From the NCBI GenBank assembly GCA_021208265.1, contig JAJOJU010000046.1:1-64000 (forward strand): a stretch of 64,000 nt of DNA. Reading direction: 5' to 3'. Below the pieces are notes generated by a model. It saw only the letters and a program-made list of their open reading frames with translations, ran no database searches and had not been told where the DNA came from. Source of the DNA: Alphaproteobacteria bacterium. GTDB lineage: Bacteria; Pseudomonadota; Alphaproteobacteria; Micavibrionales; Micavibrionaceae. Made by a program: the position numbers and the translations under genes. Below, one piece after another: positions 1,624 to 10,634 of the stretch (position 1 is its first letter; every line of letters begins with the position of its first letter).

Positions 1624-2064
1624 CTATAGCTCCGCCATATCAAACCACTGCTTAACAAGGGGGCAAGCCTCAACAGCATTATGCAATATTTTAGTCGCAG
1701 CACGGATCAATATTTCATTTCGTCCAGAATTGCCATCTCCATGCTTTCCCCCGTGGAAAAGATTATTCCTGACACTCAGGCACGCTTGTAGCATTTCTCT
1801 TGTGTCTGAGTCCTTTATCTTTTCCGGAGATGACCAGTATATATTACCATCCTTGTATAGCTGCTTTTTGGGGGGGCTATCAAGAAAATGCCTAATATCA
1901 GCATCAACTGTATCAACGCGCAATTCCTTGTGTACATGGATAATAAATTTTTCCCAGTCCGGCATGGCAGAATCCTTTCTGCCGATTGTTACAAAACCAC
2001 TGTTTTTTAGCGCGTATTCTAACTTTGATATAAAAAGAAAATAATCTTGTGCCGCCTTATTCAT
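1624..2064 (-). CDS. HEPN-like protein with Rx4H motif
   Basis: A 146-aa, mainly helical protein. I start it at MNKAAQ (2064) because AAGGGG lies eight bases upstream; the longer in-frame ORF begins at 2133. Residues 99-104 read RNNLFH, followed by GGKHGD, which matches the R-x4-6-H signature of HEPN domains. Many HEPN proteins are RNases in toxin-antitoxin and anti-phage systems, but others are non-enzymatic, so nuclease activity is inferred only. Its start overlaps the end of the upstream DUF6804-like gene by 8 bp, which implies translational coupling in a three-gene operon with the TPR-like gene. Confidence 0.6.
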   Translation of the reverse strand: MNKAAQDYFLFISKLEYALKNSGFVTIGRKDSAMPDWEKFIIHVHKELRVDTVDADIRHFLDSPPKKQLYKDGNIYWSSPEKIKDSDTREMLQACLSVRNNLFHGGKHGDGNSGRNEILIRAATKILHNAVEACPLVKQWFDMAEL

Positions 2065-2386
2065 GGCCATCCCCTTTTCTCGTTTTATATTGAAGATATG
2101 CAGAATAGGCAAAAAATACCCCGGTAATCGCATCCAAAGTCATCCAGATTTCTTTGGTCATGTGGATCGTCGCCACCGGGTTGAAAAGAATTGCCACCAT
2201 TGCCCATACCCAGAGCCATACCCCTTGATACCCGCTATTCCATAGCCGATAGCAGATAACCCCGGCACAGCCGCATACAATGATCCGCATGAAGGTATAG
2301 TATCCATAGGGCAGGGGCGCTATGGCGATGAATAACAGCGCCGCTGCCAGAGCAAGTATTTCATATGGAAGATATACATATTTCAT
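2057..2386 (-). CDS. Small membrane protein, DUF6804-like
   Basis: A 109-aa protein with about four hydrophobic segments (roughly residues 8-25, 30-48, 53-72 and 80-97) and a charged tail (KTRKGDGHE). The signature PYGYYTFMRIIVC near the first loop and ILFNP in the third segment match my recollection of the DUF6804 family of small membrane proteins of unknown function. It starts 1 bp after the TPR-like gene stop and overlaps the HEPN-like gene, so the three are one operon. A membrane partner beside a HEPN protein would fit a defence or toxin module, but that is inference. Confidence 0.6.
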   Translation of the reverse strand: MKYVYLPYEILALAAALLFIAIAPLPYGYYTFMRIIVCGCAGVICYRLWNSGYQGVWLWVWAMVAILFNPVATIHMTKEIWMTLDAITGVFFAYSAYLQYKTRKGDGHE

Positions 2387-2387
2387 A

Positions 2388-3029
2388 TTACGAAATATGA
2401 CTTATAAGATTTGAAAATGCACTTTCCATTTGCTCAATGGATTGTTGTCCTTGAGAAACGACTTTACTCATATGAAATGGAATTTTCTGTGCCTTTAATG
2501 ACTTGGCTTTTTCCAAACCTTTTTGAGCAATGCTCAAACAGTCCTCTCGCTTGTTAAGCATCGCATAGACATTGGCTAATCCCATGTATGCAGCCAACTG
2601 ATTATCATCGAGACATATGGCCGATTCCAGAGTGTTTCTCACTATTCCATAATGATGCGACATTTTTTTCTCACTGAATGATGATGCTTGCAAAAGGGAT
2701 TTTAGAGCATCCACCGATGGCATACCAACTTTACAAAGTATTGCAGAAACTTGAGTGCATCCAACCCCTTCTACATATCCTTGTTTTCCAAGCGTTTCAT
2801 AAAAGTGAACAAGGCGCAGTTCCATTGACGTAATGACGAAAACCTCGAACATAGGATCATCGCCAAATTTCTCTACAAGTTCACTGATTAGCCTTGGGTT
2901 AACATTATGCCACGGACGAGTTCTCATAAACCAATCTCGCCGCTCATCAGCATTTTTATTCATGTGAAATGGTTTTGTTGTATTCTCGTTAGAAATTTTT
3001 TGTCCCAGCAGTTTACTTAAAAATCTCAT
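2388..3029 (-). CDS. TPR-like helical protein
   Basis: A 213-aa protein with no signal peptide. Residues about 120-175 read as tetratricopeptide-like helices (ESAICLDDNQLAAYMGLANV, then YAMLNKREDCLSIAQKGLEK). The N-terminal half is not recognisable. The start has GAGGAG seven bases upstream. It is the first gene of an operon with the DUF6804-like and HEPN-like genes. Its start lies 17 nt beyond the T-run of a strong intrinsic terminator, so its expression should depend on read-through or attenuation of the upstream RNA. Confidence 0.55.
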   Translation of the reverse strand: MRFLSKLLGQKISNENTTKPFHMNKNADERRDWFMRTRPWHNVNPRLISELVEKFGDDPMFEVFVITSMELRLVHFYETLGKQGYVEGVGCTQVSAILCKVGMPSVDALKSLLQASSFSEKKMSHHYGIVRNTLESAICLDDNQLAAYMGLANVYAMLNKREDCLSIAQKGLEKAKSLKAQKIPFHMSKVVSQGQQSIEQMESAFSNLISHIS

Positions 3030-3045
3030 ATCAAACTCCTCAAAG

Positions 3046-3078
3046 AAAAATCACCAGAAGCTGTCCTTCTTCTGGTGA
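3046..3078 (-). terminator. Intrinsic terminator ahead of the TPR operon
   Basis: A perfect 10-bp stem (3051-3060 with 3069-3078) closes an 8-nt loop and is followed on the minus strand by five T residues. It lies between the structured RNA and the TPR start codon. Its position fits either an attenuator or the end of a free-standing small RNA. Confidence 0.75.
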
Positions 3079-3243
3079 CCGGGAGTTTTCAAGCCGCTAT
3101 AAGACGACCACGACGGCCTTTACGCCGAAACGCTGGACATACGCCGCCGCCTCCCGGTCATAGACCGAGAAGCGACGTGTTGACGGATACGTCATCCGCT
3201 TATAGAGGGCTTGAAAAGGCCCAGCCTGCCAAAGAGACAAGCT
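3051..3243 (-). ncRNA. Candidate structured RNA / attenuator leader
   Basis: The minus-strand RNA can form a closing helix of 17 bp (3208-3217 with 3086-3095, and 3199-3205 with 3097-3103). Inside it are an 11-bp hairpin (3163-3173 with 3149-3159, loop UAU), a CGGC/GCCG hairpin (3124-3127 with 3114-3117) and a TGACG/CGTCA hairpin (3181-3194). The 3' arm of the 11-bp hairpin is also perfectly complementary over 9 nt to 3077-3085, which would form a pseudoknot crossing the closing helix and touch the terminator stem. A promoter upstream and a terminator downstream delimit about 200 nt. I do not recognise a known RNA class. Confidence 0.6.
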
Positions 3244-3249
3244 GTGTTC

Positions 3250-3277
3250 ATCATATAGGGCAATGTTTTGATTTCAA
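3250..3277 (-). promoter_or_regulatory. Sigma-70-like promoter for the structured RNA
   Basis: On the minus strand TTGAAA (3272-3277) and TATGAT (3250-3255) are separated by 16 bp, five of six matches in each box. The predicted start near 3243 places the RNA 5' end just ahead of the closing helix. It is divergent from the AbiTii gene. Confidence 0.55.
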
Positions 3278-3320: not shown

Positions 3321-4205
3321 ATGACCGGCATAATTACAGAACTTCAAAGGGAGGCCATGGACACCAATGTCCGCATTTCCGATCTTTTGCGGAAAGCGCT
3401 TCTTGTTGCGCGTAAACTGAAAATTCCTGACATAGAGACATGGGTTCTGTCAGAATTGAACGGTTATGAAACTGAAGAAATACCAAAATACCGCCATGTG
3501 AGAGGCGAAATAAAAGCCTTTAATACCTATAATGGGGTATGGATGCCTATTATGTTTTCGGAAAGCGACACGCATACGCACCGAACCTTAACTCACAGGA
3601 CATGCAGCCAACCTGTTTCCGAATTAGAAGCGCTGATAGAAAATGGCTCTGGTCAGTTGGGTATGAGATACACCCCAGAAATAGAGGCACGATTGATGAG
3701 AGCGGCGGATATGCCTTTCCCTCCCATGTTGCTGGTTTCTGAATCAAGCCTGCACGGAATACTAGATTGCGTGAGAACCACCATTCTTGAGTGGGCTTTG
3801 AAACTGGAGGAACAAGGAATTGTGGGGGAAAATTTATCGTTTTCTCAGAAAGAGAAAGAAGCAGCTTCCACCGTGACGATCAATGTGGAGACAATGTCAT
3901 ATTCACAAATACAAGCTGGCACTGTCAACTCATCTCAATCTATGGAAAATGAAATTGATTTTGGCCAGTTAAATGAGTTTATTGAGCGACTCGAAAAATC
4001 ATTATCGGAGCTGACCCTTGATAAAGAACAAGCAGCGGAGTTATCAAGTGAAGTATCTACAGTTAAAGCGCAAACAGCGTCGCCAAAGCCTAAACAAAAT
4101 ATCATCAAGGAATCACTTCGCTCCATCAGGACGATTCTGGAAGGTGCTGCCGGAAACATTTCCGCTGATGGGTTGCTAGAGATCATGAGTAATATCAATT
4201 TCTAA
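3321..4205 (+). CDS. AbiTii-domain protein (abortive infection type)
   Basis: A 294-aa protein. Residues about 3-60 carry the AbiTii pattern: ITELQREAMD, SDLLRKALLVARKL, a WVLSELNGY segment and IPKYRHVRG. The AbiTii domain is found in predicted abortive-infection proteins; its biochemical activity is not established to my knowledge. Residues about 180-215 are Ser/Thr-rich, followed by a coiled-coil-like stretch (about 215-250) and a C-terminal helical region. The first ATG is kept because the conserved domain begins there; an ATG at 3357 has a better GGGAGG site but would cut it. The gene is divergent from the RNA / TPR / HEPN unit. Confidence 0.75.
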   Translation: MTGIITELQREAMDTNVRISDLLRKALLVARKLKIPDIETWVLSELNGYETEEIPKYRHVRGEIKAFNTYNGVWMPIMFSESDTHTHRTLTHRTCSQPVSELEALIENGSGQLGMRYTPEIEARLMRAADMPFPPMLLVSESSLHGILDCVRTTILEWALKLEEQGIVGENLSFSQKEKEAASTVTINVETMSYSQIQAGTVNSSQSMENEIDFGQLNEFIERLEKSLSELTLDKEQAAELSSEVSTVKAQTASPKPKQNIIKESLRSIRTILEGAAGNISADGLLEIMSNINF

Positions 4206-4210
4206 AACTT

Positions 4211-5299
4211 CTATTTGTGCGTTCTCTTGCATATTTCAGCCAGCAGAGCATCCGACGGAACGTCATGCAACTCAGTTTTTCCCTTCCCGATCCCCTGTAT
4301 GGCTTTATGTTGGTCACGCTGGCTCAGAGTGCCGTAGGAATTGTATGTGGTCATGGCATGTTCGTGACCAAGGTTCTGGCTGATTGCTTTTACCTGTATC
4401 TGGCTGCAATTATCCATCGCCCAGATCACCAGCATCTTTCTAAACGAATGAGGGCGATAATACGGCACACCGGCCAACAGGAAGGCATTTTTGAAAATAT
4501 CACGTACCGCTGAGGCATTCGCCCAATGCTCCCGTGACAACCCCGCAGATTCAAACTTCATCTTCTCAGGGTTGTTTTCCACGCGCTCTTTAGGAAAAAG
4601 TGGATCATTATCTTTCATCCCAAGCTGATCCCGCGCATAGGTAATCCAATCCACCACGATTTCCTCCCAGAGCGGATCAAAAGGCATGAAGAAAGTCGTT
4701 ATACCCTTGCGGTTTTTCGTTCTGACATGTCTGGGATCTTGCCAGATTTCTCTTTTGGGCAAATCCACGTCTTTCATTTTTAGACTTATCAGGGCTGCGT
4801 CGCGCACACCGGAAAGGGCGGTGAATGCCATGATCGCCCGGTTGCGTTTTTCAATATCGTTGCCCACGGGCATGGCTTGTAAAGCCTGCCGCACTTCCTC
4901 AATCGTCGGAGGCGGAGACTCGCGGGTTGCCCTCCCCGCTCGTTCGTCATTATTAGAGAGCCTCAAATAACCCACCGCGCTGCCATCGACTTTGCGTATG
5001 CCCTGCGGATGCGTGGCAAGCCACCTGAAAAACTCCCGGACATGGCCCAGAGTCGAACGCACTGTGGAAAGGCTCAGAGGAACGTCCTTTACGTTTTTCT
5101 GTTTGATCAGCCAGACCTTGAAACTTTTGGCCTGCTCCGCGTTGAAAGTCGTAAAATCTTTCAGGCCGGTTGATTGTTCAAACAAATTGATGGCTTTCCA
5201 TACCGCATCCACGGTGCGCGGCTCCCGGTATGAGCCGTGGATTAAAGCATCTTCATACTGCTTCTTGAAACGCTCATTCAGGGGGTTAAATCCAGCCAT
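4211..5299 (-). CDS. Tyrosine recombinase / site-specific integrase
   Basis: A 362-aa tyrosine recombinase. The N-terminal core-binding (SAM-like) region spans about residues 10-110. The catalytic domain shows Arg in TALSGVRDAALISLK, Lys in RTKNRKG, the HSFRK box (HxxR), LGHEHAMTTYNSY with the second His and the nucleophilic Tyr. It is therefore likely active. It follows the HTH genes on the same strand and is separate from the P4-type integrase, so island 1 carries two recombinases. It ends 5 bp past the convergent AbiTii stop. Confidence 0.9.
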   Translation of the reverse strand: MAGFNPLNERFKKQYEDALIHGSYREPRTVDAVWKAINLFEQSTGLKDFTTFNAEQAKSFKVWLIKQKNVKDVPLSLSTVRSTLGHVREFFRWLATHPQGIRKVDGSAVGYLRLSNNDERAGRATRESPPPTIEEVRQALQAMPVGNDIEKRNRAIMAFTALSGVRDAALISLKMKDVDLPKREIWQDPRHVRTKNRKGITTFFMPFDPLWEEIVVDWITYARDQLGMKDNDPLFPKERVENNPEKMKFESAGLSREHWANASAVRDIFKNAFLLAGVPYYRPHSFRKMLVIWAMDNCSQIQVKAISQNLGHEHAMTTYNSYGTLSQRDQHKAIQGIGKGKTELHDVPSDALLAEICKRTHK

Positions 5300-5384
5300 A
5301 GCTGTTCTCCTTTCTCAGTTTCACATTTACGAGGCGAATTGTTCACCCCATTATGTTGCTTGGTAGCCCCGTGCAGGTATCGGG

Positions 5385-5786
5385 CTAAGGATGATTTTCA
5401 TCCCATTTTTCTCCCTTAACGGCCTTGTGTATTTTGGTGTCGCAGACTGAACAGCGCGCCCCAAACAAGACGGTATTATTCGGATTGAGTATAAGACTCC
5501 CGGTATCAAGTTTGGGGGATCTTGGCATTTGGCATTTACAGCAAAACAGCTCATGTTCGGCACAGGGCTTCTTGCGGCTTTTTTGCTTCCGCTCCAAAAA
5601 CCGTTTCAAATCGCTGCTGTGGACAAGGTGCGGACGGGTCATAGGAAGGCGCTTCAAGCCTTCCTCACTAATCCAGCGCCTGACGGTATTCACATTGATC
5701 CCGAATAAATCGGCGATTTGCTCGACCGTATAGGTGTAGTTGTCCTTAATCCGGCGCAGAGAGTATCGACGCAGTTTCTTAGACAT
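5385..5786 (-). CDS. HTH protein with C-terminal zinc ribbon
   Basis: A 133-aa protein. Residues about 15-60 form a MerR/excisionase-type winged helix (YTVEQIADLFGINVNTVRRW), followed by a basic linker. The C-terminal half has two CxxC pairs (FCCKCQMP and ARCSVCDT), a likely zinc ribbon. It starts inside the end of the AlpA-like gene (8-bp overlap), so the two are translationally coupled. It is probably a DNA-binding accessory or regulator for the adjacent recombinase; that role is inference from position. Confidence 0.75.
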   Translation of the reverse strand: MSKKLRRYSLRRIKDNYTYTVEQIADLFGINVNTVRRWISEEGLKRLPMTRPHLVHSSDLKRFLERKQKSRKKPCAEHELFCCKCQMPRSPKLDTGSLILNPNNTVLFGARCSVCDTKIHKAVKGEKWDENHP

Positions 5787-5973
5787 TCAGCCCCTCGATC
5801 AAGGCGCGTATATCTTCCACACGCCACGCGGTCATTTTGGGGCCGAGTTTTACCGGCTTTGGATAGCGGCCTTCCTTAACTCCAGCCCACCATGTAGATT
5901 TGCTGACGGGAAAAACTCTCAATACTTCCGGCAATCTTACAAAGCCAGTTTCTGGTAAAATTTGATTTCGCAT
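5779..5973 (-). CDS. AlpA-family DNA-binding protein
   Basis: A 64-aa protein starting MRNQILPETGF. I chose this ATG because AAGGAG lies seven bases upstream; the in-frame ORF extends back to 6003. FVRLPEVLRVFPVSKSTWW is the AlpA helix-turn-helix and GRYPKPVKLGPKMTAWR the conserved wing. AlpA proteins act as regulators or excisionases of P4-type integrases. It sits downstream of the integrase and is coupled to the following HTH/zinc-ribbon gene. Confidence 0.88.
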   Translation of the reverse strand: MRNQILPETGFVRLPEVLRVFPVSKSTWWAGVKEGRYPKPVKLGPKMTAWRVEDIRALIEGLNV

Positions 5974-6068
5974 GATGGTTCTCCTTCGTTTTGTTGAAAC
6001 CAAGGAAAGCCTATGCTGTATGAAATGATTTTTGGCCGTACAGAAAAATCGAAAACCTTATACGGTTT

Positions 6069-7004
6069 TCATTCCTGCTTTGTCAGGGCATCCCGAGGCA
6101 AAAACGGTAATGCGTTTTTTATCCAGCGCCGCACAGTATCCTGATCTACCGATAAACCGAGCAATTCAATGTCGTGGACTAAGTCAGGAATCGCCGGACT
6201 CTTTTTTGCGTTCGGGTCATATCCGTATCCTTTGATTATAGCCCCTAAGAGAATTTTATGAATTGTCGTTCTTTCGCGGGATTCCAGCTTATCAGCTTGA
6301 GATTCTTCAAGAGCGGCGGCCAGAGCATCGACCTGGGCCTGTAAATCTTCAATGCTGGTTTTGCTCTTTTCCGACAGCTCTTCATAAAGTTTTCTCCAGT
6401 CAGGCGCGGATGTGACCGGAGCACGGCTGGCGAGAATTTCTTTCATGCGGGCAGGGATCGGAACATTATTACGCTCCGCCCATGCAATAAAATCGGCTGG
6501 CTTCACGGGATCGGTCAGTTCACCGACAGAAACAGCGCGTCCGGCAACCTCATGCAATTTGCGGTAAGAATTAACAAACGGCGAGAGATAAGACATTATG
6601 CCTTTCATTCGCCCCAAGAACACGACCTCAGGATCTTTGCCAAAACTAAGGGCTATGGCTTCATCCAACGACCAGTAGGGCATACGGCTCCAATGATCAC
6701 AATCAGCATCAGCCTTTTTCTGATGGAAAAATCGCCGCCGATCTCTTTCGGAAAGTTGCTTTTCGTATTCTTGATCATAAAGTTCCCTGACCTGCTTTTG
6801 GGGAAGGTTTTCAAGTTCCTGCCTGTATTCCTCGGACTTTTTGAAAACCTCGTCTGTAACGGGCAGCAGCGGTTCTTCATCTTCATAGATGCCATCATTG
6901 AAACCGTATCTTTTGGCTATGGGGGAAGGGTATGGCTCACGCAGTTCAGGGAATTTGCGCGCAACAAGAAATTCAATGTAATCGGGCGTTGGAAGCGTAC
7001 TCAT
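6069..7004 (-). CDS. Island-encoded hypothetical protein with coiled coil
   Basis: A 311-aa protein that overlaps the integrase stop by 4 bp (ATGA), hence one operon. The N-terminal two thirds contain a charged segment and a conserved-looking MPYWSLDEAIALSFGKDPE stretch. Residues about 205-250 look like a coiled coil, and the C-terminal region (LLGLSVDQDTVRRWIKNALP) reads as a helix-turn-helix of the type found in integrase-linked genes. I know similar proteins only as hypothetical genes beside P4-type integrases. Function is not assigned. Confidence 0.6.
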   Translation of the reverse strand: MSTLPTPDYIEFLVARKFPELREPYPSPIAKRYGFNDGIYEDEEPLLPVTDEVFKKSEEYRQELENLPQKQVRELYDQEYEKQLSERDRRRFFHQKKADADCDHWSRMPYWSLDEAIALSFGKDPEVVFLGRMKGIMSYLSPFVNSYRKLHEVAGRAVSVGELTDPVKPADFIAWAERNNVPIPARMKEILASRAPVTSAPDWRKLYEELSEKSKTSIEDLQAQVDALAAALEESQADKLESRERTTIHKILLGAIIKGYGYDPNAKKSPAIPDLVHDIELLGLSVDQDTVRRWIKNALPFLPRDALTKQE

Positions 7005-8248
7005 TGTTCTGCTCTTTTTCTGCCCAGATCAAAGGCTCCGACAATTACTTGGCCACCAGTCGCTATCTCATCCAGATAATCCGCCCAGTCCTGCATCATT
7101 TTGGCGCGTTCATCCAGAAATTGAGCGCGGTCATACGCCCGGTCAATCTTACTTTTGTGGGCATGAGCAAGCTGTCGATCCACAACCTCGTGTCTATAGC
7201 CCAGCTTTTCCTTGATGGTACTCATGGCCAGCGCGCGAAAGCCATGTCCGGTCATGCGCCCCTTATATCCCATGCGTCCGATGGCAAAAAGAACTGTGTT
7301 ATTTGACATGGCCTGTTTAGGGCGCACCTGACTGGGAAAAACCCAATCCGTATTCAGATGCCCCGTTTCTTCATGCTGTTCTTTCAGAATGGCAATCGCT
7401 TGCCGGGAAAGCGGAACAATATGAGGTTTTCCCATCTTCATGCGTTCTGCCGGTATTTCCCAAACGGCGTTCTCAAAATCAATTTCATGCCATTTTGCGT
7501 GTATCATTTCCGTAGTGCGCGTGAAGCATAACATTAAAAGCCTTATAGCCCTGCGCGTCCGGGCATACAGGCGCGCATCATTTTTTTCAAGCACGTTCAG
7601 GAATTGAGGCATCTCCCTTATATCAAGACAATGAAAGTGCTGTGTTTTTCCTGCTTTCAAAGCCCCTTTTAAATCAGCCGCCGAATCACGCTTACAGCGG
7701 CCCGAAGAAATGCCATACCGGAAAATCTGACCACAAATCTGTTTTACCCGCGCGGCCACATCCAGCGCGCCCCGTTTCTCGATTCTCCTTAAAACACTTT
7801 CCAGCAAATCCGGCGGATCAATATCTGCAATAGGGCGTTTTCCGATAAATGGAAAAATATCAATCTCCAAGCGCCGCATAACATTCCGGGCATGGGCGGG
7901 TGTCCATTTCCCTTTCTGGTTTTCATGCCATTCACGAGCGACGACCTCGAATGTATTCCGGGATTTACGAACAGCCTGCTTGCGTTGCTGCTTCTTTTCC
8001 TCAGAAGGATCTTTTCCTGCGGCCAGCAACTTTTTTGCCTGATCTCGCTTCTCTCGCGCGTCTGCCAGAGTCACGATGGGATATACTCCCAGCGCGAGAA
8101 GTTTTTCTTTGCTCAAGAAATAGTATTTAAGCCGCCAGTAACGCGCGCCATCAGTGCGTACATACAGATAAAGCCCACCGCCATCAGCCAGTTTATATGG
8201 CTTTTCCTTGGGCTTTGCAGCACGGCATGTTTTGTCCGATAATTTCAC
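7001..8248 (-). CDS. P4-type integrase (DUF4102 + tyrosine recombinase)
   Basis: A 415-aa integrase. Residues 1-90 form the DUF4102 arm-binding domain (LADGGGLYLYV, YWRLKYYF, ALGVYPIVTLADARE). The core-binding and catalytic domains follow, with Arg in RLLMLCFTRTTEM, MTGHGFRALAMS (HxxR) and the QLAHAHKSKIDRAYDR segment carrying the second His and Tyr. It lies 157 bp from the 3' end of tRNA-Gly(UCC) and presumably catalysed insertion there. The downstream gene overlaps by 4 bp. Confidence 0.95.
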   Translation of the reverse strand: MKLSDKTCRAAKPKEKPYKLADGGGLYLYVRTDGARYWRLKYYFLSKEKLLALGVYPIVTLADAREKRDQAKKLLAAGKDPSEEKKQQRKQAVRKSRNTFEVVAREWHENQKGKWTPAHARNVMRRLEIDIFPFIGKRPIADIDPPDLLESVLRRIEKRGALDVAARVKQICGQIFRYGISSGRCKRDSAADLKGALKAGKTQHFHCLDIREMPQFLNVLEKNDARLYARTRRAIRLLMLCFTRTTEMIHAKWHEIDFENAVWEIPAERMKMGKPHIVPLSRQAIAILKEQHEETGHLNTDWVFPSQVRPKQAMSNNTVLFAIGRMGYKGRMTGHGFRALAMSTIKEKLGYRHEVVDRQLAHAHKSKIDRAYDRAQFLDERAKMMQDWADYLDEIATGGQVIVGAFDLGRKRAEQ

Positions 8249-8404: not shown

Positions 8405-8478
8405 TGGAGCGGGTGATGGGAATCGAACCCACATAGCTAGCTTGGAAGGCTAGAGCTTTACCACTAAGCTACACCCGC
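8405..8478 (-). tRNA. tRNA-Gly (anticodon UCC)
   Basis: Cloverleaf read by eye: acceptor GCGGGTG pairs CACCCGC, the anticodon stem CTAGC/GCTAG encloses loop CTTCCAA with anticodon TCC, the T loop is GGTTCGATTCC, and CCA is encoded. Its 3' end is the attachment side of island 1. Confidence 0.96.
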
Positions 8479-8601: not shown

Positions 8602-8676
8602 TGGAGCGGGAAACGGGGATCGAACCCGCGGCCCTCAGCTTGGGAAGCTGATGCTCTACCACTGAGCTATTCCCGC
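8602..8676 (-). tRNA. tRNA-Gly (anticodon CCC)
   Basis: Acceptor GCGGGAA pairs TTCCCGC, the anticodon stem TCAGC/GCTGA encloses TTCCCAA with anticodon CCC, the T loop is GGTTCGATCCC, and CCA is encoded. It lies upstream of tRNA-Gly(UCC) on the same strand. Confidence 0.96.
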
Positions 8677-9052: not shown

Positions 9053-9802
9053 TTACGCTACTTTACGGACCTCGTTCTCGCGTATTTTCTGGCGAAGAAG
9101 CGGTGAATAGCCAAGAGCGCGCTGCTCGATTTCCTGTTCAATCGCATCCGGCGTACGGCCAAAATCCAGTACAGGATCTAATAAGCCCGTACTCTCGCGT
9201 ATGGTCCGGTTGATTTCCTCGTTCACCCAAAGACGACCCACACGAACCACTTCGCCGCCAATATCGGTTTCAGGACCCAAATAATCGACCTCCCAGCCGG
9301 GGCGCTCAAAAACCTTCCAGTAATGCGGGTTCATCAGGGCCACATAAGCATCCAGACGCTTATACAGCGCATATTCCATGTAACCCACGATAAGCTCGTT
9401 CACGACCGCACGGCGCCTGTCTCTGTCATCGCGCAGCCGCGGATGCACCACCAACCGGCTGGCTTCGTATATCTTGGGACCGGAAGGAAGCTCGGTCGTC
9501 ACCAAACTTCGGAAACTTTCGGAAATCATGAACTGACCGATAGTACCGGGTTCCGTGAGCTCATCCACCGTGGGAAACAGCCGTGTAACACCTAATATCC
9601 GGCCATCATGCTCGCAGCGGCTAACCAGATAGCGGGTTCCCGGCTTATCAAAATTATCCGCTTCCGTATTTTCATGGGCTGTCAATCCCTGTTTCCAACC
9701 CAGCTCCGCCACACAAACCTGATATCTGAGCTCAAATTGCTCTCTGAGCGGGTTGTGAGGAAAAAAGTTTACACAATTACCAACTCCGACGCATTCAATC
9801 AC
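9053..9802 (-). CDS. luxI: Acyl-homoserine-lactone synthase (LuxI family)
   Basis: LuxI enzymes make N-acyl-homoserine lactones from S-adenosylmethionine and an acyl donor (acyl-ACP or acyl-CoA). The invariant residues can be placed: Arg26 (LRYQVCVAE), Trp36, Asp49 and Asp52 (EADNFD), Arg74 (VTRLFPT) and Glu113 (YEASRLVV). At 249 aa it is longer than typical LuxI proteins (about 190-220 aa) because of a C-terminal extension after residue ~205. It lies 58 bp downstream of luxR on the same strand. The acyl chain cannot be predicted from sequence. Confidence 0.93.
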   Translation of the reverse strand: MIECVGVGNCVNFFPHNPLREQFELRYQVCVAELGWKQGLTAHENTEADNFDKPGTRYLVSRCEHDGRILGVTRLFPTVDELTEPGTIGQFMISESFRSLVTTELPSGPKIYEASRLVVHPRLRDDRDRRRAVVNELIVGYMEYALYKRLDAYVALMNPHYWKVFERPGWEVDYLGPETDIGGEVVRVGRLWVNEEINRTIRESTGLLDPVLDFGRTPDAIEQEIEQRALGYSPLLRQKIRENEVRKVA

Positions 9803-9860
9803 AGAAGTTCTCCTTTTCTTGTGAATGACTCCTGCGTTGATTGAAATAATTTTAGAGGAT

Positions 9861-10634
9861 TTAAGAAACTGACACTTTTGACAGGGGGGTCCCGATCAGC
9901 ACGGGATCAATAAGCCCAAGCCGTATCGCCTTGGTCATGGCATACACACGCCCGTAGGCATCTAGCTTTTTGAAAATCTTGTTCCAGTGGAACCGCACCG
10001 TGCTGAAACTGATATTAAGGATGGCAGCGATTTCCTCGTCTGTCTTGCTTTCCACCGCCCAGCACAGGATTTCTTTTTCCCGCACGGTCAGGCTGATCTG
10101 ATGATCAGGGCTGATCATGTTCTTGTATGTTTCGTGAAAATAAACCGTCAGGAAATAAGCATTCGCCAATAACTGGTAGTTTCGCTTTTGATGCCGGGCT
10201 TTTGCTTTGTTGGGTTCTGTACGGCATAGCCCCACCCCGACAATTTCCCCCGGCGAACTGATAAGCGAGATACCGATACCGTCAGATACACCGGCCTCAT
10301 CCGCCTCATCCATCAAGAGTTTGGAGGATTTCCGTATATTGGGATCCCTGTCCAGATCCGACCAGAAGAAAGGAACGCGGGATCTGGCAATCCGCTCGAT
10401 GACAGGATCGACATCGATATAATTATTCTGCCGGTAATATTTCATCCAGTGTTCGGGATAATTCGTCACCAGACCGTGCTGGCGCGGCAAACCCAAACTG
10501 GGGTGATCTGTAACAAGGCTATAAACAGCGCGGCCATAGCCCTCTCTCTCCATAATGGAGGCATATCTGCTAAAGGCCTCTTCCGGCGTTTCCGCAGAAT
10601 TTATCAGCGCTATATAATCATCCAAATTCTTCAT
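9861..10634 (-). CDS. luxR: LuxR-family autoinducer-binding regulator
   Basis: A 257-aa regulator. The N-terminal autoinducer-binding domain keeps the conserved ligand residues Trp63 and Tyr67 (HWMKYY), Asp76-Pro77 (DVDP) and Trp91 (FFWSD). The C-terminal LuxR HTH runs from LTVREKEILCWA through KTDEEIAAIL to STVRFHWNKIFKKL. It binds an acyl-homoserine lactone and controls transcription, probably including luxI just downstream. Its start overlaps the XRE gene end by 17 bp. I saw no clear lux-box palindrome in the 58-bp luxR-luxI gap. Confidence 0.93.
   Translation of the reverse strand: MKNLDDYIALINSAETPEEAFSRYASIMEREGYGRAVYSLVTDHPSLGLPRQHGLVTNYPEHWMKYYRQNNYIDVDPVIERIARSRVPFFWSDLDRDPNIRKSSKLLMDEADEAGVSDGIGISLISSPGEIVGVGLCRTEPNKAKARHQKRNYQLLANAYFLTVYFHETYKNMISPDHQISLTVREKEILCWAVESKTDEEIAAILNISFSTVRFHWNKIFKKLDAYGRVYAMTKAIRLGLIDPVLIGTPLSKVSVS

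Follow-up and report, generated by a model that had tools for sequence, protein, structure and literature searches.

Work on sRNA-Xcc1 has treated it as a trans-acting RNA that is linked to virulence and has no known target. In Xanthomonas it is a discrete RNA of 88 nt, as determined by Northern blot and RACE (PMC2996969), and homologues are expressed in Xylella (PMC12189769). Integron cassettes carry it as well, and the presence of symE behind the RNA in Xanthomonas has been noted without a mechanism (PMC12444791). A different RNA, c4 of the phages P1 and P7, represses the antirepressor gene ant by pairing at its ribosome binding site (RBS) (PMC12197685). None of the publications that we searched mentions both Xcc1 and an antirepressor. 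Here, we describe a relative of sRNA-Xcc1 that stands ahead of an accessory operon in a member of the Micavibrionales. The family is known; the architecture and the mechanism that we propose are new.

Structure of the leader RNA

Inspection and folding of the window, i.e. the whole stretch of 64,000 nucleotides that we analysed, gave a candidate structured RNA of about 200 nt on the minus strand (3046-3277), ahead of three genes. A sequence-only reading of this DNA had listed a promoter, several helices, a terminator and a pairing of 9 nt between distant strands, and all of them are present and correctly placed. The predicted fold reaches -100 kcal/mol, vs -69.6 +/- 4.7 kcal/mol for shuffled sequences (z -6.5). 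Judging from this fold and from the compensatory changes in relatives, the RNA is real.

From 5' to 3' the locus carries a promoter, a hairpin P0, a GGGG/CCCC hairpin with strand X1 in its loop, strand X2, an H-type pseudoknot, strand C5', the helices P4 and P5, strands X2', X1' and C3', the terminator, the Shine-Dalgarno sequence and the start codon. The promoter-like TTGAAA-16-TATGAT (3250..3277, minus strand like all parts of the RNA) places the expected transcription start near 3244. Taken alone this site is at chance level, since 5 such sites occur in 6 kb where 8.7 +/- 3.0 are expected. Among relatives, TTGAC boxes cluster 120-133 nt upstream of the core and good promoter matches are found in 40%, compared with 18% in shuffles. 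P0 (AGCUUGUC/GGCAGGCU, 3223..3243) is predicted by folding; relatives have it too, in variable form. The X 5' strand (3199..3217) consists of UUUUCAAG (3217-3210), held in the loop of the GGG/CCC hairpin (3222-3220/3209-3207), and of CUAUAAG (3205-3199); in c4 terms it occupies the position of a1b1. Its partner, 3103-3086, is made up of X2' (3103-3097) and X1' (3093-3086), as indicated by covariation and leader permutation. Together they form the long helix of the RNA, TTTTCAAG/CTTGAAAA plus CTATAAG/CTTATAG. Between them lie the H-type pseudoknot (3174..3198), with stem CGGAU/AUCCG (3198-3194/3188-3184) and loop helix GACGU/ACGUC (3193-3189/3178-3174), then C5' (GACCGGGAG, 3151..3159), and then P4 (3150-3143/3117-3110), which encloses UAUGUCCA, the P5 hairpin with its UUCG loop (3133-3122) and AAAG. 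C3' (CUCCCGGUC, 3077..3085) pairs with C5' across helix X, over 9 nt (3151-3159/3077-3085) that can be extended to 10, and makes with the preceding AA the conserved anti-Shine-Dalgarno segment AACUCCC. The RNA ends in an intrinsic terminator (3046..3078) with a stem of 10 bp (UCACCAGAAG/CUUCUGGUGA, 3078-3069/3060-3051) followed by a U-run (TTTTT in the DNA). P0 (3243-3223), the H-type pseudoknot (3198-3174) and the family match given below had no place in the sequence-only reading.

The helices all covary in two independent alignments. The alignment of type B, to which the window belongs (25 relatives, 57 named pairs), has 92.2% of its cells paired and 228 double-sided changes (66 in shuffles); its covariation score is 0.456, compared with 0.179 +/- 0.009 in shuffles (0/500) and at most 0.131 in slid controls. 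That of type A (54 sequences, 47 pairs) has 92.5% of cells paired and a score of 0.409 vs 0.170. C and P4 are conserved; in the X2 columns as many as five pair types occur. In the loop helix of the H-type pseudoknot 98% of cells are paired, with double-sided changes, and likewise in type A; in the C5'/C3' helix it is 97.8%, with compensatory changes at three pairs. Helix X also forms better with the locus's own leader than with permuted leaders (z -14.7). The sequence-only reading had staked its RNA on helices and covariation in homologues, and both were found, in each alignment. It had also listed a closing helix and an alternative pseudoknot. Both helices are conserved, and they can coexist. 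As X (X1 plus X2) and C cross, the "closing helix" and the "alternative" pairing are in fact one conserved pseudoknot. A further candidate partner of C5' is strand 1 (3163..3172), which would form with it a hairpin of 10 bp (CTTCTCGGTC-TAT-GACCGGGAGG, spanning 3172-3150). This hairpin, the one named in the sequence-only reading, shows little covariation above shuffles despite 92% of paired cells.

Might such an element be a structured DNA site for recombination or transfer, rather than an RNA? The presence of sRNA-Xcc1 in integron cassettes (PMC12444791) and the occurrence of several copies per genome in variable places would fit such a site. Yet the promoter upstream, the oriented terminator with its U-run, the G-U pairs kept in the helices and the one-sided arrangement of genes all speak against it, and we find this reading hardly credible.

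Relation to sRNA-Xcc1 and c4 RNA

At default thresholds, Rfam lists nothing at the window RNA. At an E-value threshold, RF02221 (sRNA-Xcc1) matches it on the minus strand (3159-3069, model positions 1-87 of 87, 31.9 bits, E 6.6e-4), and the first base pairs of the model are exactly the pairing 3151-3159/3077-3085. Since the gathering score is 53 bits, the window RNA is a distant relative and not a curated member of the family; relatives within the order score 31.9 to 57.9 bits. A covariance model of 172 positions, R1, built from 18 type B relatives with the window left out, matches the window RNA at full length (3049..3223, minus strand, model positions 1-172 of 172, 145.8 bits, E 4.9e-35) and has no other significant match within the window or its genome. 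The earlier view that the RNA matches no known family thus gives way to an end-to-end, sub-threshold match to RF02221, backed by a leave-one-out covariance model.

These RNAs are frequent. RF02221 has full-length matches in 49 of 95 relatives (1-6 copies per genome) and in none of 14 controls. Across the Micavibrionales 71 of 142 genomes, i.e. about half, have a match. The loci, compared in 6-kb stretches around the copies, fall into three sequence types, A, B (including the window) and C, all of which extend 5' of the Rfam model. Among 398 sampled Pseudomonadota, R1 matches 43 genomes, about 25 of them outside the 58 found with RF02221 (by a hand count of the overlap). Its full-length relatives come from Sneathiella, Gammaproteobacteria, Thiotrichaceae, Devosia, Bradyrhizobiaceae, Magnetococcales and Verrucomicrobia, and it cross-matches two leaders of phage ant genes (L234, 1.6e-9; L233, 2.6e-5). 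A BLAST search with the window RNA gave no match in plasmids and phages, and scanning viral contigs for the pattern of the type B core gave none either. Of the 88 pattern matches among genome contigs, several (e.g. Streptomyces, Mycobacterium, Paenibacillus, Oscillospiraceae) seem fortuitous, and those tested were missed by the model.

Some loci are worth recording in their own right. Six from Verrucomicrobia (L121, L126, L137, L140, L164, L193) have the same leader architecture ahead of short proteins that appear to be secreted; no T-run terminator is apparent there by eye. A copy of the RNA reported from E. coli O157 may lie near a Shiga-toxin prophage. The M. aeruginosavorus record CP066681 has three copies in the two stretches analysed. 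Two copies there (L082 and L170) are separated by 278 bases that hold no more than a short reading frame, and in Xylella copies of sRNA-Xcc1 are spaced by about 381-386 bases (PMC12189769); this close spacing suggests tandem units of RNA plus small gene.

With sRNA-Xcc1 the window RNA shares the closing helix, P4/P5, the order of strands and the placement before a gene, and canonical RF02221 loci likewise have an upstream 5' X strand. It differs in being a leader of about 200 nt with a second pseudoknot, whereas sRNA-Xcc1 is 88 nt long and described as acting in trans. The RNAs of the group resemble c4 RNA of P1 and P7 in arrangement: they lie just upstream of the RBS of a presumed target, to which they are complementary as a group and which in the phage loci of RF02221 is an antirepressor. 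In contrast to c4, the window has an accessory operon and a terminator, and the pseudoknot architecture is different. Neither sequence nor structure matches RF01695 (c4 antisense RNA), whose model gave nothing up to E 5 over 801 bases.

Genes behind the RNA

The first gene behind the RNA (2388..3029, minus strand) encodes a protein of 213 aa, TPR-like according to the sequence-only reading, with no match in Pfam or PADLOC. It is followed on the same strand by a DUF6804 gene (PF20619, E 4.7e-23; 2057..2386) and by a gene for a 148-aa protein with an RNNLFH (Rx4H) motif, HEPN-like by this motif only and with no Pfam match (1624..2070). A search of 141 other genomes of the order gave no homologue of the TPR protein. 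The HEPN-like protein has relatives in six further genomes of the order, on contigs without an RF02221 match. In 122 of 129 usable Micavibrionales loci a gene starts at a median of 41 nt past the core (interquartile range 38-45). These 122 genes form 83 single-linkage families, which include lipoproteins, HTH proteins, HsdM, GIY-YIG and HNH nucleases, zinc ribbons and many unknowns. Hence, the RNA is a portable leader and not a fixed part of an operon. The specific tie to TPR/DUF6804/HEPN genes that had been proposed does not survive: as a conserved partner of the RNA this set is ruled out by the diversity of downstream genes and the missing TPR homologues. Nor do the downstream genes make up a defence class, as PADLOC matches among 90 of them are few (UzuA 2, type I methyltransferase 1 and PDC-S37 1 among the matches listed). 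Families of unknown proteins do recur behind the RNAs (L062, L070, L041, L252, L263; L105, L071, L077, L090), lipoproteins and proteins of ~40 aa; some of the lipoproteins are probably DUF2846, and both families are candidates for conserved RNA-gene modules.

A terminator-like hairpin with a T-run follows the core in 26 of 28 type B and 45 of 57 type A loci (71/85 together), vs about 6-7% of random stretches. Such a hairpin is found in only 1 of 30 canonical RF02221 loci and in 2/9 of type C. An intrinsic terminator between leader and gene, kept in homologues, is the mark of a transcription attenuator. The sequence-only reading of an attenuator-like structured leader with its own promoter and terminator is thereby supported.

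The same reading had raised a type III-like RNA antitoxin, with the toxin encoded by the operon. ToxIN, CptIN and TenpIN do share with the window the order RNA-terminator-gene and a pseudoknotted RNA, and the HEPN-like Rx4H protein might be taken for the toxin. But those systems have repeats and a ToxN fold. The window RNA has no tandem repeats, no Pfam family of the ToxN, CptN or TenpN type was found in the window operon or among 90 downstream proteins, and the HEPN relatives are on contigs without an RF02221 match. The genes downstream of the family are very many and unrelated, lipoproteins, HsdM and zinc ribbons among them. We therefore judge an antitoxin of this kind very improbable.

The RNA probably lies in a mobile region. 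Divergent from it, 44 bases from the promoter-like site, starts an AbiTii gene (3321-4205, plus strand; PF18864, E 2.4e-48; PADLOC AbiTii), whose C-terminal part also matches the PDC-M14B and AbiTi models. Genes for a pair of tyrosine recombinases (362 and 415 aa) occupy 4211-8248, along with those for an HTH_17 protein and an AlpA-like regulator, and this recombinase region lies between tuf and two tRNA genes (8408-8478, 8605-8676). The region between tuf and the tRNA genes is probably an integrative element or satellite, and by their situation in it the RNA and the operon are probably its cargo. Further on, at 9053-10634 on the minus strand, adjacent genes resemble, by their translations, a LuxI-type acyl-homoserine-lactone synthase and a LuxR-type regulator.

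Complementarity to ribosome binding sites and a possible lock

The genes behind canonical RF02221 RNAs point to a target. At the strongest loci from other Proteobacteria, the 28 downstream proteins include Bro-N (5), Rha (3), SymE (2), KilA-N and P22_AR_N, and 33 further ones include SymE (3) and Rha (1). In the annotated phages Rac-SA53 and Aaphi23 ant lies directly behind the RNA, in Acinetobacter phage 4316 a KilA-N gene does, and in Vibrio phage VPBES sRNA-Xcc1 is annotated; all four RNAs score above the Rfam threshold. The window operon, made of TPR-like, DUF6804 and HEPN-like genes, lacks the antirepressor found at canonical loci, and it also lacks the symE gene that the RNA precedes, on the same strand, in Xanthomonas integron cassettes (PMC12444791).

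At canonical loci the X' strand (X2'-X1') has two complements, the 5' leader (X) and the RBS of the gene that follows, as in Aaphi23 (leader CGAAACCTTACAAACAGCGG, RNA CCGTCTGTTTGCGGCTTTCGAACC, RBS CGAAAATAACAAACAGGAG). Over 65 RF02221 loci of other Proteobacteria, X2'-X1' pairs with its own RBS at -17.6 kcal/mol, compared with -13.2 kcal/mol for the RBS of other loci (z -12.8, 0/5000); X1'-C3' does so with z -13.6 (0/5000 permutations), and X' matches its own leader with z -13.1. The symE genes behind canonical RNAs show this RBS complementarity too. By analogy, then, canonical RF02221 loci share the logic of the c4 RNA of P1 and P7. The mapped size of 88 nt fits a piece cut at C5', and sRNA-Xcc1 in Xanthomonas may thus be a product of processing that has lost the competing X 5' strand. 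In some canonical leaders (L203, L206, L216, L219, L234) the X strand is separated from the sRNA by a hairpin with a T-run (e.g. CCGCACCCGTCAGACAAGCGGTTTTTTT), which resembles an internal terminator and could release the X strand as a short, target-mimicking RNA.

Compared with canonical sRNA-Xcc1, the Micavibrionales RNAs keep only the anti-Shine-Dalgarno part of the antisense strand and add a terminator. Full X2'-X1' antisense to the RBS was rejected for them (z -1.3), whereas X1'-C3' pairs with the own RBS at -12.0 vs -10.3 kcal/mol for permuted ones (z -8.6, 0/5000). GGAGTT precedes 24 of 90 RNA-led genes but 1 of 409 other genes in the same stretches, and GGGAG 33/90 vs 13/409. RNA and RBS sometimes show matching changes (AACAGCC/GGCTGTT in L096, ATCACTCC/GGAGTGAT in L063, CACCCCG/CGGGGTG in L038, ATAAACAC/GTGTTTAT in L073). 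Among loci departing from CTCC, own matches of at least 6 occur in 13/39, compared with 11-14% with swapped RBSs. GGAG itself is generic, as it takes part in the best duplex at 76 loci vs 66 +/- 3.7 with swapped RBSs, and co-inheritance of leader and RBS could also raise the own-locus complementarity behind the z of -8.6. In the window, AAACUCC (3088-3082) can pair with the Shine-Dalgarno GGAGUUU of the TPR gene (3033..3039; 3039-3033 in the sense of the RNA) over 7 bp at -9.7 kcal/mol, which is at the permuted mean of the group. RBS complementarity is hence a property of the group.

These loci could also encode mainly independent small RNAs acting in trans, with the downstream gene as a leaky passenger. 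A discrete 88-nt RNA in Xanthomonas (PMC2996969), the expression of its homologues in Xylella (PMC12189769), and the promoter and terminator that delimit an RNA in the window would all suit them. Yet the constant distance to the start codon and the complementarity to the own RBS point to control of the neighbour, and this makes a mainly independent RNA rather improbable. A ligand- or protein-sensing attenuator seems to us unlikely too, though somewhat less so. The pseudoknotted body would bind a metabolite or protein at conserved unpaired nucleotides and switch the terminator, RBS complementarity being secondary. The invariant unpaired bases of P4 (UAUGUCCA and AAAG in type B, AAUA.AA.A in type A) do exceed what antisense pairing needs, the terminator is strictly placed, and the body is conserved though downstream genes differ. 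But the 83 downstream families have no common pathway, nearly all loci of the phage type lack the terminator (present in 1/30) and carry the RBS-complementary strand instead, and the variable X strands resemble addresses more than they do a binding pocket.

Because the phage relatives precede genes for antirepressors and are able to pair with the start signals of these genes, the RNA most likely acts as a lock on its downstream gene. We think it probable that the Micavibrionales RNA is a variant of the RF02221 leader in which a c4-type repressor RNA was turned into a lock made of terminator plus RBS. The promoter would give a pseudoknotted RNA of about 200 nt, and most transcripts would stop at the intrinsic terminator. 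From the U-run to the start codon there are only about 16 bases, which leaves the operon no room for a promoter of its own, and it would be served by read-through only. In the read-through mRNA, AACUCCC(GG) could pair with C5' (CCGGGAG), closing the pseudoknot and leaving the RBS free, or AACUCCC could pair with the Shine-Dalgarno GGAGUU, shutting off translation and enclosing the terminator hairpin in the loop. The RBS could also be shut in trans, by terminated or processed RNA. In the phage form taken as parental, X' would be antisense along its whole length to the RBS of the antirepressor or symE gene. A classical antiterminator is not obvious in the window, where C3' and the terminator share only two bases, and the competing 1:2 hairpin covaries weakly; both count against this model. 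What we observe is the fold, the pseudoknots, the terminator, the constant position before a gene and, for the group, complementarity to the own RBS; repression by RBS pairing, switching and its direction, processing, action in cis or trans, and the signal that opens the lock are what we infer.

A broader view is possible and more tentative. RF02221 RNAs might be very widespread c4-like repressors in Proteobacteria, phages and Verrucomicrobia, each with a private address strand, which in the Micavibrionales became a transferable lock for accessory genes and possibly a regulon in trans. Within one genome the AACUCCC strand and its target GGGAGUU are found at more than one locus, so that each RNA might also act in trans on the genes of the others. 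If true, this would be an RNA-wired regulon of mobile genes.

For sRNA-Xcc1 itself there is now a candidate target, the RBS of the adjoining gene, often a phage antirepressor or symE. Such targeting would explain why the RNA is conserved save for one hypervariable strand. Prophage annotation would gain a marker overlooked at the current Rfam threshold. In the Micavibrionales loci a phage immunity RNA would have become a portable control element, a pseudoknotted leader and terminator for unrelated accessory genes.
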